A DNA stretch of 64,000 bases from Pantoea sp. WMus005 (lineage in GTDB: Bacteria > Pseudomonadota > Gammaproteobacteria > Enterobacterales > Enterobacteriaceae). The translations under genes and the position numbers were made by a program. Where the stretch lies: contig NZ_JACBXU010000008.1 in assembly GCF_013415305.1 (NCBI RefSeq), forward strand, positions 1 through 64,000, given 5' to 3'. The notes under the pieces were generated by a model, which was given only the letters and a program-made list of their open reading frames with translations, was not told the origin of the DNA and searched no databases. Within the stretch, counting starts at the first letter, position 1. The number at the start of each line of letters is the position of its first letter. This document shows positions 50,273-62,279 of the stretch, piece by piece.

Positions 50273-51259
50273 TTATTTATCACGCCAGCGATAGAGCCGC
50301 GCCAGCCATAACAGCAACTGATACCACTGCTTAATTCCCCGGGCATTACGTAACATGCGCAGGTGTGTCCCGGTCGCGAACAGATCGGCAATGATTGCCT
50401 GGCGTGAGCGGGCGTCAGGCTCTCGTCTCACACTGTGACAAACGCTGAGCGCTTCATGGGTCACCTGATAGTGAAATGACGGGTAGATCGTCACGTGGTC
50501 ACGATAACGATTGTTGAGCTCTTCCAGCAGCCGCGCAATCTTCAGGTAATGACGCTGATATTCAACGTTACGCTCACCGGTGCGTTTGCGGTTGCTGATG
50601 GAGGCGTCGTGCATATAGTAGCGATAGAGCACCGCTTCGGTATAACGCACACGTTTTGCCAGCAGCATAAACTCGGTGGTCCAGGGAATATCCTGATGAT
50701 GCAGGCCCGGTTCGAACTGCAGCTGATGCTGCTCAATCAGCTTCCGGCGATAGATACCCAGCCAGACCACATGCATATAACGACGGGTTTTCAACGCGGT
50801 ATTGAGCCAGTCGGCACCGCTCAGTACCGGCGTGCTGCGCAAACGGTCCAGGGGAATAAGCGGCTTTACCCGCTGGCTATGTTTGAAAAACCACTCAGCA
50901 TTGCACTGTGCTGCATCCAGATTGTCTGCTTCCGCCAGCGTTACGAGCGTCTGATACATATCGGGCTGCATTGTGTCATCTGCGTCAGGAAAGGTGACAT
51001 ATTTCCCGCGAGCTATCGCCAGACCCGCATTACGCGCGCGCGAAACACCGCCATTTTCCTGATGAACCACGCGAATATGAGAATGCTGCTGTGCATACTG
51101 GTCGGCACGCTCGCCTGAGCCGTCGGTGGAACCATCATCGACAATAATGATTTCCAGCGCGGTCAGTGTCTGCGCCAGCAGTGAGTGCATGAACTCATCA
51201 AACATGCTGCCCGCGTTGTACATCGGGGTAATAATACTCAGCAGAGGAGAAGTACTCAT
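50273..51259 (-). CDS. Family 2 glycosyltransferase of the LPS core locus
   Basis: A 328-aa inverting GT-A enzyme: LSIITPMYNAGSMFDEFMHSLL, IIIVDDGSTDGSG, and the metal-binding FPDADD. A helical C-terminal region ends in a basic tail (LLLWLARLYRWRDK) that may contact the membrane. The acceptor is unknown. The start was placed at ATG 51259 (MSTSPLLSI); an upstream in-frame TTG would extend it by 22 residues of poor coding quality. It is separated from the upstream GT8 gene by 327 bp. Confidence 0.85.
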   Translation of the reverse strand: MSTSPLLSIITPMYNAGSMFDEFMHSLLAQTLTALEIIIVDDGSTDGSGERADQYAQQHSHIRVVHQENGGVSRARNAGLAIARGKYVTFPDADDTMQPDMYQTLVTLAEADNLDAAQCNAEWFFKHSQRVKPLIPLDRLRSTPVLSGADWLNTALKTRRYMHVVWLGIYRRKLIEQHQLQFEPGLHHQDIPWTTEFMLLAKRVRYTEAVLYRYYMHDASISNRKRTGERNVEYQRHYLKIARLLEELNNRYRDHVTIYPSFHYQVTHEALSVCHSVRREPDARSRQAIIADLFATGTHLRMLRNARGIKQWYQLLLWLARLYRWRDK

Positions 51260-51586
51260 GACAATATCTGCACCAGCGTTGTATTCACTGCGAAAGGACG
51301 TTGCCTTGTCATAAATCATTTCCAAATCAGCAGAATGAAATCGGGGAGTTCATGATTATAAAACGGTGTAGCTTCCCTGCTTTACTAAAAACCACGCCCG
51401 ACAATAATAATGCGCTATATGCGCTTTTTTTATGCAAATTGGTCGCGCAGGTAAACAGATTAGTATGTTGGCTTTCTGTCAGCGTCGTTTTTATAGCGGT
51501 ATTGGCAAACAGCAGGCGGGATAAATGACGGGAAAGTCAGGCACTGCAATAACAGCGCCTGCATCAATCTGATAAACCTGTATGCG
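51260..51586. other. 327-bp gap inside the core cluster
   Basis: This is the only sizeable break in the hldD-to-waaQ string, where most neighbours overlap or nearly touch. It is AT-richer than the flanking genes and includes a candidate small ORF on the plus strand (51352-51528). It could hold an internal promoter for GT2-waaQ-wabG. Confidence 0.5.
51352..51528 (+). CDS. Candidate small membrane protein antisense to the core operon
   Basis: A 58-codon frame beginning MIIKRCSFPALLKTT, with a GGGGAG site 4-5 nt before the ATG. It has one hydrophobic segment (LVCWLSVSVVFIAVLA, about residues 37-52) and a basic tail (NSRRDK). It lies wholly in the gap, opposite in direction to the surrounding genes. 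It is too short to exclude chance. Confidence 0.25.
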   Translation: MIIKRCSFPALLKTTPDNNNALYALFLCKLVAQVNRLVCWLSVSVVFIAVLANSRRDK

Positions 51587-52591
51587 CTATTGCTCGCTCT
51601 GTTTAAAAAACTTGAGACTGACATACTTCATCATCCAGCTCAGGCTTTCAGCATACTGTTTCTGATGCCATTTTACGCGAGCGAATCGCTTCATCTCTTT
51701 ATAATGCTTTGGCGTATCAAGGGGTTGTGCAGCCCAGGGTGAGCGCTGGTAATAGCTGTGGTAGCGCTGGGCAAGGTCGCTGCCCGCCCATGCATGCCAG
51801 GGTTTGCATTTACCGGTGTAGTGGATCATCACCGTCTCTTCAGGCACGCCCGAGTGATCCCAGACTTTATTAGCGATGATGTCGTAAATCTGGTTATAAC
51901 GGTCCGGCAGGATCAGGATCTCATCTTCCAGCACGATATTCAGCGCATCCTGATCGGGAAAACCAAATTCTGCGCCCCGCGACACCAGCACCTCGGTAAT
52001 GCGCGCGGTGGTCTGCCTTTCGAGCCAGCGTGGAATATTGATCAGCATAAAGCCGGAGTTGAAATAGTGATGATGCTTCAGCCCCAGCCGTGTGCACTGG
52101 TTCTGTCGCGCACGTGGCGTGTCATTACAGGCGGCCAGCGTGTAATCCGTGATATCCAGGGTGAACAGGGGAGAGTAATCACCTACTACCAGGGTATCTG
52201 CATCAATATAGATTACCCGATCGCTGTAGCTCGCCACGGTTCCAGGAATAAGGAAACGGTAGTGGATACTTTTAGGGTAGCGTCCGACCGCAGGCAACTG
52301 ATCAACCCAGTCACTGTTAAAGATATGCAGCGTGATGGCCAGACGATGACCTGAGGCCAGCGAACGCAGTTTTTCCATATCCTCATCATGTAGCGAGTCT
52401 GAGAAAATATGAGCGTGGAAAGCCGTATCGGGATGATGGCTGAGAAGTGAAAACAACGTAATGCCCAGGCCACGCGCGTAGGCGTGGTTAATGCCAAACG
52501 CAACGTGAACCGGATTGTCATCCGTGTCAGCAAGCGTGTTAACCAGCAGCTGACTTTGCTGAACGGCATCAGCAAGAGGGGTAATTGCCAT
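51587..52591 (-). CDS. Family 8 glycosyltransferase of the LPS outer core (WaaO/WaaI-like)
   Basis: A 334-aa retaining GT-A enzyme. N-terminal VHVAFGINHAYARGLGITLFSLL and YRFLIPGTV lead to the metal-binding DxD motif VIYIDADTLV. HYFNSGFMLINIPRW, DQDALNIVLEDEI and IHYTGKCKPW are the further GT8 marks, as in E. coli WaaO, WaaI and WaaJ. It likely adds galactose or glucose alpha-linked to the outer core; the exact linkage is unknown. It starts 9 bp after the GT9 gene. Confidence 0.88.
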   Translation of the reverse strand: MAITPLADAVQQSQLLVNTLADTDDNPVHVAFGINHAYARGLGITLFSLLSHHPDTAFHAHIFSDSLHDEDMEKLRSLASGHRLAITLHIFNSDWVDQLPAVGRYPKSIHYRFLIPGTVASYSDRVIYIDADTLVVGDYSPLFTLDITDYTLAACNDTPRARQNQCTRLGLKHHHYFNSGFMLINIPRWLERQTTARITEVLVSRGAEFGFPDQDALNIVLEDEILILPDRYNQIYDIIANKVWDHSGVPEETVMIHYTGKCKPWHAWAGSDLAQRYHSYYQRSPWAAQPLDTPKHYKEMKRFARVKWHQKQYAESLSWMMKYVSLKFFKQSEQ

Positions 52592-52600
52592 TACGCTTCA

Positions 52601-53677
52601 CTATTCCAGATTATGAGTAATAAACGTTTGTATTCTAGTCAGTTTATCGTGATCCAGCCCGAATAATTTTTCAGCAGGCTGATCAAACTTAAAACGGGTG
52701 GCAAAAACGAACGTCGACGCAGCAATATCATCCGGTCCGATAAACAAAACATTATTGACTGGACGCTGCTCCCTGACTTCACACGGCCCATAAAGCATGA
52801 TGATCGGGATCTGCTGCGCATCCGCAATATAGGCATTGCCAGAGTCAGAGGAGATATAAAAATCCATCTGCGAAATGGCCCACGGAACCTCTTCCAGTTT
52901 TAGCTCACCAATCAGACTGACGATATTCTCTTTCGGGCCGGTCAGGCTCAGTAACTCATCCAGCCACGGCTGCTCGGCTGGCGGACCAAACACATAAAAA
53001 GTGCAGGGCAGGTCAGACAGCGACGCCATCAGCTGCTGCCAGATGCTGGCAGGAATCGTCTTTGCTTTGTTACCGGCAGAAATACTGATGCCTATTTTAA
53101 TGCCGCTGCGCGGATTCTGTAGCGCGGCGGGCGGCACGGACGGCTGCCAGAGCGGCGAGGTCGCGTGTTTAGGGAAATCGGTGTAGCGATAGTTGCGGTT
53201 AATCAGCTTCAGGTAACTGTCGAGCGTTAAGTCTGTCTTCGCATGGTCGACAATGCCGGTGGCGCTGCGATAGAAGGTCTTATGGTAAGACTTACGCACA
53301 TAGGTACGCAGAAACTGTTTGTTCGGTGCGTTGCATAACGCGGCAAAGAACAGGTTTACGCTGTTTGGCTGCACCAGATAGACATTGTCATAGCGGTTCA
53401 TCAGGGTGAACGCGAGCTTCAGTTTGGCAAAAAAGCTGCGCTTTGCGTCTTCAATCAGAAAATAACGGCAGACCGTGTCATCGTGACGCGCCAGCGGCTC
53501 TACCGCTTTGCTGATCAACAGCTCAGACTGACCCAGGGCGCGCAGCATCGGGGTGATATTGATAAAATCACCAATCTTCGCCGTCTGGATGATTAAGCTG
53601 CGTCCGGTTGGCCGATAGAACAGCCGCATTATGGCCCGGACAGGCAGCAGTAGCAGGTAGATCAGCACATAGTTCAT
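52601..53677 (-). CDS. GT9 heptosyltransferase-family protein
   Basis: A 358-aa protein with an N-terminal hydrophobic stretch (YVLIYLLLLPVRAIMRLF). GT9 marks include the strand-loop SLIIQTAKIGDFINITPMLRAL and the C-terminal nucleotide site FYISSDSGNAYIADAQQIPIIMLYGP. It is more divergent than waaC, waaF and waaQ, and its sugar is not known; a fourth heptose or a related sugar is possible. It overlaps waaC by the four-base ATGA, so it belongs to the same operon. Confidence 0.8.
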   Translation of the reverse strand: MNYVLIYLLLLPVRAIMRLFYRPTGRSLIIQTAKIGDFINITPMLRALGQSELLISKAVEPLARHDDTVCRYFLIEDAKRSFFAKLKLAFTLMNRYDNVYLVQPNSVNLFFAALCNAPNKQFLRTYVRKSYHKTFYRSATGIVDHAKTDLTLDSYLKLINRNYRYTDFPKHATSPLWQPSVPPAALQNPRSGIKIGISISAGNKAKTIPASIWQQLMASLSDLPCTFYVFGPPAEQPWLDELLSLTGPKENIVSLIGELKLEEVPWAISQMDFYISSDSGNAYIADAQQIPIIMLYGPCEVREQRPVNNVLFIGPDDIAASTFVFATRFKFDQPAEKLFGLDHDKLTRIQTFITHNLE

Positions 53678-58081: not shown

Positions 58082-59110
58082 ATGAAAGCACTCGCCAAAC
58101 TGAAGAAGGAAGAGGGCATCTGGATGGTGACCGATGCGCCGGTTCCAGAGCCAGGTCACAACGATTTGTTGATTAAAATTCGTAAAACCGCCATCTGTGG
58201 CACCGATGTCCATATTTACAACTGGGATGACTGGTCGCGAAAAACCATTCCGGTGCCGATGATTGTCGGTCATGAATATGTGGGTGAGGTGGTTGCGACA
58301 GGGCAGGAAGTGAAAGGCTTTACGATTGGCGATCGGGTCTCGGGCGAGGGACATATCACCTGCGGGCACTGCCGCAACTGCCGTGCCGGGCGCACGCATT
58401 TATGCCGCAACACGATGGGCGTGGGCGTCAACCGCCAGGGCTGTTTCGCGGAGTATCTGGTTATCCCGGCCTTTAATGCGTTCAAAATTCCCGACAACAT
58501 CTCCGATGAGCTGGCGGCAATCTTTGATCCGTTCGGCAATGCGGTGCATACCGCACTCTCGTTCGATCTGGTCGGCGAAGATGTGCTGATCTCCGGCGCA
58601 GGTCCAATCGGAATCATGGCCGCCGCGGTCTGTCGTCACGTCGGTGCGCGCAACGTCGTGATCACGGACATCAATGAGTACCGGCTGGCACTGGCACGAA
58701 AAATGGGTGTCACGCGCGCGGTCAATGTGGCGAATGAAAATCTGCGGGAAGTGATGCATTCACTGGGCATGACGGAGGGATTTGATGTCGGGCTGGAGAT
58801 GTCGGGTGCGCCTCCTGCGTTTCGTAGCCTGCTGGAGGTGATGAATCACGGTGGGCGTATCGCACTGTTGGGCATCCCGCCGGGTGAAATGGCGATCGAC
58901 TGGAACCAGGTGATCTTCAAAGGGCTTTTCATCAAGGGAATCTATGGCCGTGAGATGTTCGAAACCTGGTACAAAATGGCGGCACTGATTCAGTCCGGCC
59001 TCGATTTAACGCCGGTAATCACCCATCGCTATAGCATTGACGATTTCCAGCAGGGCTTTGATGAGATGCGATCAGGACGCTCGGGGAAAGTGATACTGAG
59101 CTGGGATTAA
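58082..59110 (+). CDS. tdh: L-threonine 3-dehydrogenase
   Basis: Zinc-dependent NAD oxidoreductase that starts threonine catabolism and feeds Kbl. A medium-chain dehydrogenase of 342 aa: catalytic zinc ligands in [11 protein letters not shown] and GHEYVGEV, structural zinc [15 protein letters not shown], and the NAD site [14 protein letters not shown]. It forms the kbl-tdh operon. Confidence 0.97.
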
Positions 59111-59138: not shown

Positions 59139-60050
59139 TTAGCTTTGCTTCTTCTCTTCGTCGGTCAGGTAGCGCACTTTGCGCGTGTAGTCCTGACCTT
59201 TGAAGTTCAGCGGTTGTTGCGGATCGGCAAGGTATTTTTGCCATTCCGACAGCGGGAATCCGCCATGTGCGCCCACCACGTCAGACGGGATCACCGCCGA
59301 CTGACCGCCAATTTTCTTTGAGACCGGCCAGTTAGCCCATTCACCCAGATTGACGGTTTTAATATCCAGCATGTCCAGCAACACCGCGAGCGGCAGCTGG
59401 TCAGTCGGCGGCTGGCTGTCGTTCATCAAATTCCAGGTGTCATTAAACAGCGTCAGCCACAGCGGCGAAATGCGCTGCCAGACCTCACGCGTGGCAGCCA
59501 GGTAAGCGCCATTAACGTGGTCTGTCAGGTAGGGACGAATGCTGTGCTGATAGTAAGCGGGAATCGCCGCTTCTGGTGCACCCTCCAGCTTGGCAATCAT
59601 TTTACCCTGACGGAAGCTGGAGTAGAGATGGCCTGGCTTCATCATGATCTCAGGCATCTTAAGCAGATTGAGGTCGGAATCGATCATCAGAATGCCGTTG
59701 CCTTTTGCCTGCAGGGGCGCCTGCAATTTGATCAACCGGCTGCGATAGATCTGCTTGTAGCGATAGCTCTCTTCCCTGTGTGGCACATCCAGGGTTGCCA
59801 CGCGGGTTTTCACTGGCAGACTGCCAAAGGCGTGCGCGGGCTGATCGCTGACAATCACGATCTCTTCTGCCTCCGTCGCAAAGCGCGCCGCAAAATCGGC
59901 ACTGAGCAGGGCTTCTTCAATATAGTCAGCGCCAGTGCAGGGGATCACGACCGACGTGACCGGAACGGTCCCCTCACCCCCCTGATGCGAATAAGGCAGG
60001 TTATGGCGCGATCTGATATGGCGGTAACGGGGATTTAAAAAATTAAGCAT
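59139..60050 (-). CDS. Glycosyltransferase-like protein of uncertain family
   Basis: A protein of about 303 aa from the ATG at 60050 (MLNFLNPRYRHI), chosen because it overlaps the upstream GT4 gene by 8 bp. An N-terminal segment PVTSVVIPCTGADYIEEALLSA resembles a GT2-type start, and MIDSDLNLLKMPEI contains a DxD-like metal motif. The C-terminal part (SAVIPSDVVGAHGG) is unfamiliar. It was not assigned to a named gene. With its neighbour it occupies the place of E. coli yibD/waaH between tdh and yibQ. Confidence 0.7.
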   Translation of the reverse strand: MLNFLNPRYRHIRSRHNLPYSHQGGEGTVPVTSVVIPCTGADYIEEALLSADFAARFATEAEEIVIVSDQPAHAFGSLPVKTRVATLDVPHREESYRYKQIYRSRLIKLQAPLQAKGNGILMIDSDLNLLKMPEIMMKPGHLYSSFRQGKMIAKLEGAPEAAIPAYYQHSIRPYLTDHVNGAYLAATREVWQRISPLWLTLFNDTWNLMNDSQPPTDQLPLAVLLDMLDIKTVNLGEWANWPVSKKIGGQSAVIPSDVVGAHGGFPLSEWQKYLADPQQPLNFKGQDYTRKVRYLTDEEKKQS

Positions 60051-61272
60051 GGGGTTTCTTTTTAACGACGCTCTGCAGAATATTCTCGACGCCGCTGATA
60101 TAGGTTTCAATAGCGTACTGTTCACGTACGCGTTTCGCTGCCGCATTGATCAGGCGTTGACGTAAATCCGCATCCTGCCACAGCGCGGTCAGGTTTTGGG
60201 TCAGCTGCACTACATTGCCATAGTCAAACAGCAGCCCGGTTTCGTCATGACTGATCAATTCGGCAGTGCCGACTACGCGTGATCCTACAACGGCGGTATT
60301 TACCAGCATCGCTTCCAGCACGACTCTGGGTAAGCCTTCACTGCGAGAGGCAAGAATAAAGGTATCAAAGGCGGTGAGGTAATCCAGCGCATTGTTCTGA
60401 AAGCCCGTAAAGACCACATGATGCTGGATGTTCTCAGCGGTGGCGAGTTGCAGCAGATGCTGAAGCTCCGGACCCGCCCCGACAATCACCATCTTCCAGT
60501 CTGCATCGGGATTGGCACGTTTAAAGCGGCCCAGCGCCTGCAGAATATGGTGATTAGATTTACGTAATATCAGCGAGCCGATCGTGCCAAACACAAAGGT
60601 CGACGGAGAGAGTTTAAAGCGCTGGCGGACTTCAAGGCGGTCGGGCAGGGACTGATGAATATCGATAGCGTTATTGACGGTAAAACAGCGCTCCGCATCC
60701 ACACCATGGGTGCGCAGGGTGTTATTGACACCCTGTGACACCGCAATGACTGCCTGACAGTTCTGATTAACTATGTTGACCAGCCGCGGTTCCAGAACCG
60801 GATCGATACGGCAGTGTTGCACCACCGCAACCTCCAGGCTGCGCGCCGCCAGATACCCTTCCACATTGGTGCTCGGCTGGTTATTCATGTAGAGCGTGTC
60901 AAACTTCCCCAGCTGTAGCAGTGAATTAATTTTGCTGGCGTTGGGTATAATGCGCCAGTGGGTATCAATCTCATCGATGGCACGCTTCCTGAGCTTTTTA
61001 TTGAAAAACAGCAATGCCCTAGCGGCTTCTTTAACCAGTTTCGCCCAGCGTGGCTGCTTGATTTGTGGAATAAAAAAGACCGGAATAGCCAGCGCATTCA
61101 GCGTGGCCTCAATGGTTTCGTCGTTGCCACGGCTGTAGTTGTGATAGAAGCAGCAGGTGATATCAAACTTTTGACGATCGATACGTTTCAGCAGCTCCAG
61201 CATACTGTTGGTGCCGCCGCCCCACTCTCTGCCGTTATCCAGCAGCAGGATTTTTTGTTTATTAATCGTCAT
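60043..61272 (-). CDS. Family 4 glycosyltransferase
   Basis: A 409-aa GT-B retaining glycosyltransferase. The donor domain has FGTIGSLILRKSNHHILQALGRF, a VIVGAGPE block and the GT4 acidic motif in ASRSEGLPRVVLEAM. The N-terminal acceptor side has DNGREWGGGTNSMLELLKRI. The start was placed at 61272 (MTINKQKILLLD); a longer frame to 61365 is weaker. It is likely a cell-surface polysaccharide or LPS decoration enzyme, with unknown sugar. Confidence 0.85.
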   Translation of the reverse strand: MTINKQKILLLDNGREWGGGTNSMLELLKRIDRQKFDITCCFYHNYSRGNDETIEATLNALAIPVFFIPQIKQPRWAKLVKEAARALLFFNKKLRKRAIDEIDTHWRIIPNASKINSLLQLGKFDTLYMNNQPSTNVEGYLAARSLEVAVVQHCRIDPVLEPRLVNIVNQNCQAVIAVSQGVNNTLRTHGVDAERCFTVNNAIDIHQSLPDRLEVRQRFKLSPSTFVFGTIGSLILRKSNHHILQALGRFKRANPDADWKMVIVGAGPELQHLLQLATAENIQHHVVFTGFQNNALDYLTAFDTFILASRSEGLPRVVLEAMLVNTAVVGSRVVGTAELISHDETGLLFDYGNVVQLTQNLTALWQDADLRQRLINAAAKRVREQYAIETYISGVENILQSVVKKKPHA

Positions 61273-61376
61273 CCCTATTACTGCTCCCGCACAGCCCGTT
61301 CTAACCCGACCCAGGATTATAGTAATTTCTGCACATAAATGAACGCTTAGCCGACGACTTAGCATTCATAGCAAAT

Positions 61377-62279
61377 TCAGAACAGATTCTTTAGCGTCTT
61401 AAACAGCGGGCTGTTATTCACGCTTTCGCCTATTACCGTTAAGGCTCTGGTAGCCGGAACCGGCGCCAGCGGCTGTTTCGGTTTACACAAACCGGCAGGC
61501 TGGAAGCGTGGAGGTACCGGTTTTGGCGGAGCCACAGGCGTCTGTGAGCCGCTATGGAGTGATTCGTTCAGCAACTGGCTGGGACGAACCAGCGTAATGT
61601 CGGCTGGCAGCGTGGGTAACATCTGTTGCAGCACCCGTACGGTAGTCGGGTGAGGATGACCAATGGCAATCGCGTAACCGTTGCGCTGTGCCAGTTTCAC
61701 CGCCCGACTGAACTGCTGGCGGATGGCGTTAATATCCTGGCTGTCATCAAGGAATACCCGACGTTTTAACACTTTGACCTGGGTACCCTGCGCGGCAGGA
61801 ATCGCCTGACTATTGGCGATGGTCATGCTATCCAGGAAGTAGAGATTGTAGTGGTTCAGCGCCTGCATCACTTTCTGCATGCCGGGCAGGCTTGAGGTCA
61901 TTCTGCTGCCCATATGGTTGTTAAGTCCCACAGCATAAGGCACGTTGTTAACCGCATTGCGCATGATGCGTGAGACCTCTTCGCTGCTCATCTCCGGCGT
62001 TAAAGTATCTTTTTCCAGCGGCTGTTTGCTCAGGGGTGCCATCGGCAGATGGATCAGGACTTCGTGACCACTCTGATGCGCTTTAGTCGCCATTTCACGG
62101 GCGTGGGGCGCGTTGGGCAACACCGCCACTGAAATGGCCTGCGGCATCTGCAGGACTTTGTTCTCTTCGGTGGGGCGATAACCGACATCATCGATGACAA
62201 TCGCCAGTTTGCCCGCCTGCGCAGCGCAGGAGAACAGCAGGGCGCTCAACAGAACGGGAATTTTTCGACGTTGCAGCAA
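61377..62279 (-). CDS. yibQ: Divergent polysaccharide deacetylase family protein YibQ
   Basis: A 300-aa periplasmic protein with a signal peptide (KIPVLLSALLFSCAAQA). The NodB-like fold is marked by AIVIDDVGYR, LPMAPLSKQPLEKDTL, VGLNNHMGSRMTS and AIGHPHPTTVRVL. The start is a TTG at 62279, with AGGA upstream, immediately after envC. It matches E. coli YibQ, whose substrate is not established. Its pairing with envC hints at a peptidoglycan or envelope role. Confidence 0.9.
   Translation of the reverse strand: MLQRRKIPVLLSALLFSCAAQAGKLAIVIDDVGYRPTEENKVLQMPQAISVAVLPNAPHAREMATKAHQSGHEVLIHLPMAPLSKQPLEKDTLTPEMSSEEVSRIMRNAVNNVPYAVGLNNHMGSRMTSSLPGMQKVMQALNHYNLYFLDSMTIANSQAIPAAQGTQVKVLKRRVFLDDSQDINAIRQQFSRAVKLAQRNGYAIAIGHPHPTTVRVLQQMLPTLPADITLVRPSQLLNESLHSGSQTPVAPPKPVPPRFQPAGLCKPKQPLAPVPATRALTVIGESVNNSPLFKTLKNLF

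Follow-up and report, generated by a model that had tools for sequence, protein, structure and literature searches.

The structure of the lipopolysaccharide (LPS) core determines phage adsorption and outer-membrane strength. To our knowledge, core genes have been assigned only in part in Pantoea, Enterobacter, Rahnella and related bacteria. The described system nearest in position to the locus analysed here is WaaH (YibD) of E. coli, a PhoB-inducible transferase which, according to PMC6358824, places GlcUA onto the side-chain heptose. We analysed a 64,000-nucleotide stretch of the Pantoea sp. WMus005 genome (contig NZ_JACBXU010000008.1, positions 1 to 64,000; hereafter the window), in which a pair of genes occupies the same tdh-yibQ interval and likely also serves core modification. 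The pair encodes a GT4 glycosyltransferase and a 303-aa protein, for which P1 is the label used here. WaaH, however, is a GT2-type enzyme without family-level likeness to P1 or GT4, its gene lies on the opposite strand, and an ortholog of it is present elsewhere in the window.

Other described transferases can be compared with one member of the pair. WaaB and other core transferases share GT4 domains with the cassette GT4, which shares 21% identity with E. coli WaaB in an alignment of 187 columns but scores 68.2 bits with the LPS 1,6-galactosyltransferase model PRK09922.1, whose cut-off is 385. The GT8 enzymes WaaO and WaaJ are LPS core transferases with a DxD motif in the alignment; in contrast to this likeness, the profile-profile probability for P1 is 0.3%, and the window has a GT8 gene of its own. 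The CAZy GT6 enzymes resemble P1 in its predicted GT-A fold and DxD motif, and differ from it in sequence, in the invariant C-terminal blocks peculiar to P1 and in its LPS gene context. A literature search returned no description of the pair that we recognised, and three identifiers had no literature match; neither an enzymatic activity nor a solved structure or a mutant came to light.

The gene pair between tdh and yibQ

The features of the window discussed in this work are as follows.

50273..51325, minus strand: WaaH/YibD ortholog in the waa cluster (PRK10073.1 and identity to E. coli WaaH; homology starts at residue 22, so the start codon is uncertain)
51587..52591: GT8 of the window
52601..53677, minus strand: GT9 adjoining waaC, co-occurring with P1, outside the cassette (best NCBIfam match 28.7 bits against a cut-off of 134.6)
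58082..59110, plus strand: tdh, flank of the pair
59139..60050, minus strand: P1, 303-aa protein with a predicted GT-A fold, of an unclassified family (open reading frame, translation, family searches, models and fold searches)
60043..60050, minus strand: GT4/P1 overlap of 8 bases (the same in 41 of 64 measured loci)
60043..61272, minus strand: GT4 glycosyltransferase, 409 aa (PF00534 and PF13439, both above cut-off)
61316..61321, minus strand: TATAAT, possible -10 element of a promoter of the pair (enriched upstream of GT4)
61377..62279, minus strand: yibQ, flank of the pair

On the minus strand GT4 comes first and P1 follows; the pair shares its strand with yibQ and is convergent with tdh, and the window's own genome has one copy of P1. 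The first-pass annotation had described a two-gene glycosyltransferase cassette with an 8-bp overlap at 59139-61272, and these coordinates are exact. Its assignment of the cassette to the yibD/waaH position is right for the interval, which is the same as in K-12, but not for the orientation, as K-12 waaH lies on the tdh strand, convergent with yibQ.

The two genes are probably transcribed together, possibly from a promoter of their own. TATAAT occurs within 150 nt upstream of GT4 in 39 of 67 mutually related stretches, against a mean of 4.07 and a maximum of 10 in 200 mononucleotide shuffles, which preserved single-base composition only. A promoter and terminator scan based on two hexamers did not list the hexamer at 61316..61321; it returned one promoter-like and one terminator-like site, both under their shuffle means and neither at the conserved TATAAT. 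A Pho box scan upstream of GT4, which uses a crude score, reached 9.75 at best against a shuffled mean of 9.38, and the E. coli waaH control was equally indistinct (10.0 against 9.60).

GT4 belongs to Glycos_transf_1 and Glyco_transf_4, as both domains exceed the Pfam cut-offs (PF00534, 109.3 bits with a cut-off of 26.4; PF13439, 41.3 bits with a cut-off of 28.5). Every NCBIfam match is far under its cut-off (best 109.5 bits against 409), and therefore no donor or acceptor can be named for it. PRK10073.1, which we take to be the YibD model, is absent from the best 25 of its 33 NCBIfam matches, the last of which scores 28.7 bits. PMC9376448 deals with an unrelated Erwinia GT4. The highest 19-residue Kyte-Doolittle means of the two proteins are 1.0 and 1.5, and neither has a long hydrophobic segment.

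Predicted fold and motifs of P1

Searches of Pfam-A, NCBIfam, PHROGs and PDB sequences gave no significant match for P1. Against Pfam-A, with E up to 5, the single sequence retrieved only SAC9_GBDL_2nd (12.3 bits against 27), and neither Glyco_transf_6 (GT6) nor Glycos_transf_2 (GT2) was found; NCBIfam, PRK10073.1 included, and PHROGs gave zero matches, and those to PDB sequences were at chance level. The structure model built from 50 sequences (model 2) reached a pLDDT of 86.9 and a pTM of 0.90. In both Foldseek (best E 2.3e-10, TM 0.53) and VIA-align the best 50 matches listed were all GT6 enzymes (ABO transferases and alpha-1,3-galactosyltransferase), with a top VIA-align match at Z 15.8 and an rmsd of 3.8 over 229 residues at 10% identity; other families may occur beyond the 50 matches of VIA-align. 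By its predicted model, P1 thus has a GT6-like GT-A fold, and it is a GT-A protein that Pfam, NCBIfam and PHROGs leave unclassified. This predicted likeness at 10% identity fixes neither donor nor linkage; by analogy with GT6, P1 may act with a retaining mechanism. In a viral fold library, model 1 matched numerous GT-A proteins from both giant viruses and phages (best E 2.4e-10), which says that the fold is widespread and nothing more.

The first-pass annotation had seen in the 303-aa protein a possible undescribed transferase group with a GT2-like start. The former suggestion agrees with the predicted transferase fold and the empty family searches, and none of the four libraries searched clearly placed P1 in a known family that acts outside the envelope. 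The latter survives in weak form: a six-sequence GT2 set gave a profile-profile probability of 39.8% over 83 N-terminal columns, whereas the fold as a whole is nearest to GT6. Membership in GT8 was not supported by profile-profile comparison with two nine-sequence GT8 sets from relatives and E. coli WaaO/WaaJ (0.3% and 0.2%). Two comparisons against single sequences were likewise negative, one with E. coli HtrL/YibB (0.9%) and the other with the DUF6625 protein encoded in the Verrucomicrobial cluster described below (1.4%).

The MIDSDLN motif noted earlier is present, and all 50 sequences of the alignment share its D124, S125 and D126 without exception. The same holds for three further blocks, Q213-Q218 (QPPTDQ), N240-P242 (NWP) and G260-L267 (GAHGGFPL); the TDQ of the first presumably resembles catalytic motifs of other GT-A families. 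The invariant blocks are also kept in the Verrucomicrobial member, and orphan P1 copies without GT4 retain the DSD motif. P1 would depend on a metal and take its sugar from a nucleotide sugar; D124 and D126 would hold the metal and the diphosphate, and the three C-terminal blocks may shape the donor and acceptor sites.

Distribution, site turnover and mobile copies

Scanning 84,980 species genomes with two peptide patterns only retrieved 78 P1 loci, whose sources include Pantoea, Erwinia, Mixta, Enterobacter, Kosakonia, Buttiauxella, Rahnella, Mangrovibacter, Trabulsiella, Sodalis and one Verrucomicrobial record. The same GT4 lies directly upstream of P1 in 71 of these loci, some of the pairs being broken, and yibQ precedes GT4 in 69 of the 78. 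In 13 of the 78, mostly from Erwinia and Sodalis relatives, the pair was seen without an adjacent tdh; one of these 13 lies at the end of a contig. Six loci have P1 without GT4 (L091-L094, L103 and L107, a short contig), while in the Verrucomicrobial locus (L105) a distant GT4 (26%) occupies the upstream place. The overlap was measured in 64 of the 78 loci; the other 14 were broken, lay off the site or were truncated where a contig ends. The dN/dS ratios of P1 and GT4 are 0.04-0.13 in four comparisons, a fifth being saturated, and the distances of the two proteins correlate at 0.84 over 2080 pairs. Since both frames are conserved across genera, the cassette is more than chance. P1 need not act with GT4, however, because orphan and phage-borne copies have no such GT4 adjacent.

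Among 99 genomes near the window's own, P1 occurs in 33, including broken or remnant site copies in four (G014, G015, G040 and G055), and GT4 in 34; both are present in 33, GT4 alone in one (G059) and P1 alone in none. A class-wide search found P1 in one of 369 genomes, which is the window's own, and the E. hormaechei pair had no blastn match in 20,395 E. coli records. P1 or the pair is broken at L097, L100, L106 and L108 and in G014, G040 and G055, several of these being symbiont genomes.

At the tdh/yibQ site TRANSFERASES are gained and lost, and transferase genes are exchanged there. Of the 27 genomes of the genus lacking P1, 15 were examined at the site. In four, yibQ adjoins tdh. In nine, an unrelated GT4 of 366-370 aa adjoins tdh, with yibQ beyond the stretch; five of these genes are convergent with tdh and four lie on its strand. 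The remaining two are G059, which has the cassette GT4 alone, and one stretch that was cut short. The loci with the unrelated GT4 are L161, L164-L167, L169-L171 and L173.

Further genes were observed at the site in Enterobacter: a 266-aa WaaE-like GT2 between yibQ and GT4 in E. hormaechei (L048:3773-4573), and a 265-aa relative, also WaaE-like, between P1 and tdh (L069:6959-7756). The 606-kb linear record L117 (NZ_CP077309.1), labelled as a plasmid, contains the chromosomal gpmM-to-waaC stretch and is therefore probably a piece of chromosome.

Eleven P1 copies, five of them chromosomal, four from viral contigs and two from plasmids, form one branch (100/100) in a midpoint-rooted tree whose Verrucomicrobial row is very long. 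The plasmids with copies of this side clade combine genes for phage structure and packaging with genes for plasmid replication, and P1 is here cargo of P1-type phage-plasmids. The 95-kb pEuc3 encodes capsid, tail and baseplate proteins, a lysis protein, terminase, RepB and ParM. A second Pantoea plasmid, pFC61912-B_D, has a similar layout, with terminase, late promoter activating protein and RepB in the 30.6 kb covered, and DNA of the two plasmids recurs in five IMG/VR contigs. The mobile-clade P1 adjoins an acyltransferase gene of serine-acetyltransferase type, which is under NCBIfam cut-offs. A tblastn search of 50,697 phage records gave no match to P1. Relatives of P1 in the separate clade are encoded at L116:2999-3934, L118:9710-10645 and L111-L114, on Pantoea P1-type phage-plasmids and IMG/VR contigs. 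In G015, the P1 of the site is mostly lost beside an intact GT4, and an intact mobile-clade copy lies on another contig (L091 = G015:C1, and G015:C11); this one case is what substitution of the site P1 by a mobile copy would look like.

Association with LPS core genes and proposed role

The waa cluster of the window comprises waaA, waaC, waaF and genes for a HepIII-transferase-type GT9, a WaaE-like, a WaaG-like and a GT8 protein, and the cassette sits outside the waa operons. The GT9 gene adjoining waaC (52601-53677), whose product matches no NCBIfam heptosyltransferase model above cut-off, would link the two. Within the genus, this GT9 is present in 33 of 33 genomes with P1 and in 3 of 27 without (Fisher p 8e-14, treating genomes as independent though they are not); in an order sample of 345 genomes it is present in 7 of 7 with P1, from four genera, and in 2 of 338 without, neither set of counts being corrected for descent. 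GT9 is not dependent on the cassette, because it is present with neither P1 nor GT4 in G030 and G039, with GT4 but no P1 in G059, and without P1 in G466 and G589 of the order sample. Its gene comes directly after waaC where the cassette occurs in, among others, Enterobacter, Kosakonia, Buttiauxella, Rahnella and Mangrovibacter, and was not seen within the stretch fetched for the Erwinia, the Mixta and several of the Pantoea loci.

The Verrucomicrobial P1 (44% identity) lies in a run of GT4, GT2, GT4, P1 and GT4, with a GT9 1.6 kb further. The best counterparts of this run in the window are the WaaG-like GT4 (29%), the WaaE-like GT2 (27%), the cassette GT4 (26%), P1 itself and the waaC-adjacent GT9 (32%), and this compact LPS-type cluster thus mirrors five transferases of the window, in a single record that is possibly contamination. 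An orphan P1 in Trabulsiella guamensis (L092) has two notable genes nearby, one for a lipid A acyltransferase and one for a DUF535 protein.

Taken together, the gene order and structure, conservation, GT9 association, predicted fold and invariant motifs make it reasonably likely that GT4 and P1 form one transcription unit and are two soluble cytoplasmic glycosyltransferases acting on the LPS core. An envelope role had been proposed for the pair, and GT9 co-occurrence and the LPS gene context make a role in LPS its best reading; most likely, the pair decorates the inner part of the molecule. We infer from these data both the enzymatic activity and the LPS core as the acceptor. GT4 and P1 would each add one sugar, most simply in succession, to a core branch, and this acceptor would depend on the GT9 encoded beside waaC.

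The first-pass annotation had the pair take the place of waaH, that is, act as a local functional replacement of WaaH. The shared tdh-yibQ interval speaks for this, but the reading is very improbable and we rejected it, as the WaaH ortholog lies in the waa cluster of the same window, 8 kb from the cassette, with a PRK10073.1 score of 524.9 bits for 50276-51325 against a cut-off of 423, and is 54.7% identical to its E. coli counterpart in an alignment of 329 columns. In addition, all seven genomes of the order sample with P1 have a WaaH match at 37-55% identity, orthology being uncertain at 37%, and the pair lies on the opposite strand and differs from WaaH in fold class of sequence. Two genomes with WaaH at 82 and 86% are without P1. 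WaaH and the pair possibly share an acceptor.

Two other explanations concern the substrate and the nature of P1. That the pair acts on another surface polymer, such as exopolysaccharide, capsule, O-antigen or enterobacterial common antigen, would fit its place outside the waa operons, after a yibQ annotated in K-12 as polysaccharide-deacetylase-like, and GT4s of many exopolysaccharide systems match the cassette GT4 as highly as LPS ones do, all below cut-off. We nevertheless consider it unlikely, given the co-occurrence with the GT9 beside waaC, the heptosyltransferase-family GT9 in the Verrucomicrobial cluster and the open reading frame list for the end of the window, in which no flippase, polymerase or chain-length gene adjoins the pair. 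It is less probable still that P1 is a GT-A-fold protein other than a glycosyltransferase, either nucleotidyltransferase-like or a catalytically silent partner that regulates or anchors GT4: against its tight pairing with GT4 and its lack of family-level sequence matches to known transferase families stand the invariant DSD motif, which persists in copies that have no GT4, and the nearest solved folds, which are those of active GT6 enzymes.

The pair is thus real and conserved, and probably an LPS-core module, with one unclassified transferase family. If this is true, two candidate transferases and the waaC-adjacent GT9 belong together, and one of these transferases lies outside Pfam and NCBIfam. 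The LPS core of P. agglomerans is described as highly diversified in PMC10999674, and with a core-linked transferase on board, a P1-type phage may therefore alter its own kind of receptor. The mobile clade suggests that lysogens of P1-type phage-plasmids remodel the LPS core, and lysogenic conversion by its P1 is possible. More speculatively, and as a proposal that we hold only tentatively, P1 might found an unrecognised glycosyltransferase family and mark, together with the waaC-adjacent GT9, a core type scattered over the Enterobacterales and at least one Verrucomicrobial lineage, while the mobile clade might supply P1-type phage-plasmids with a lysogenic-conversion enzyme that alters the core and excludes related core-receptor phages.
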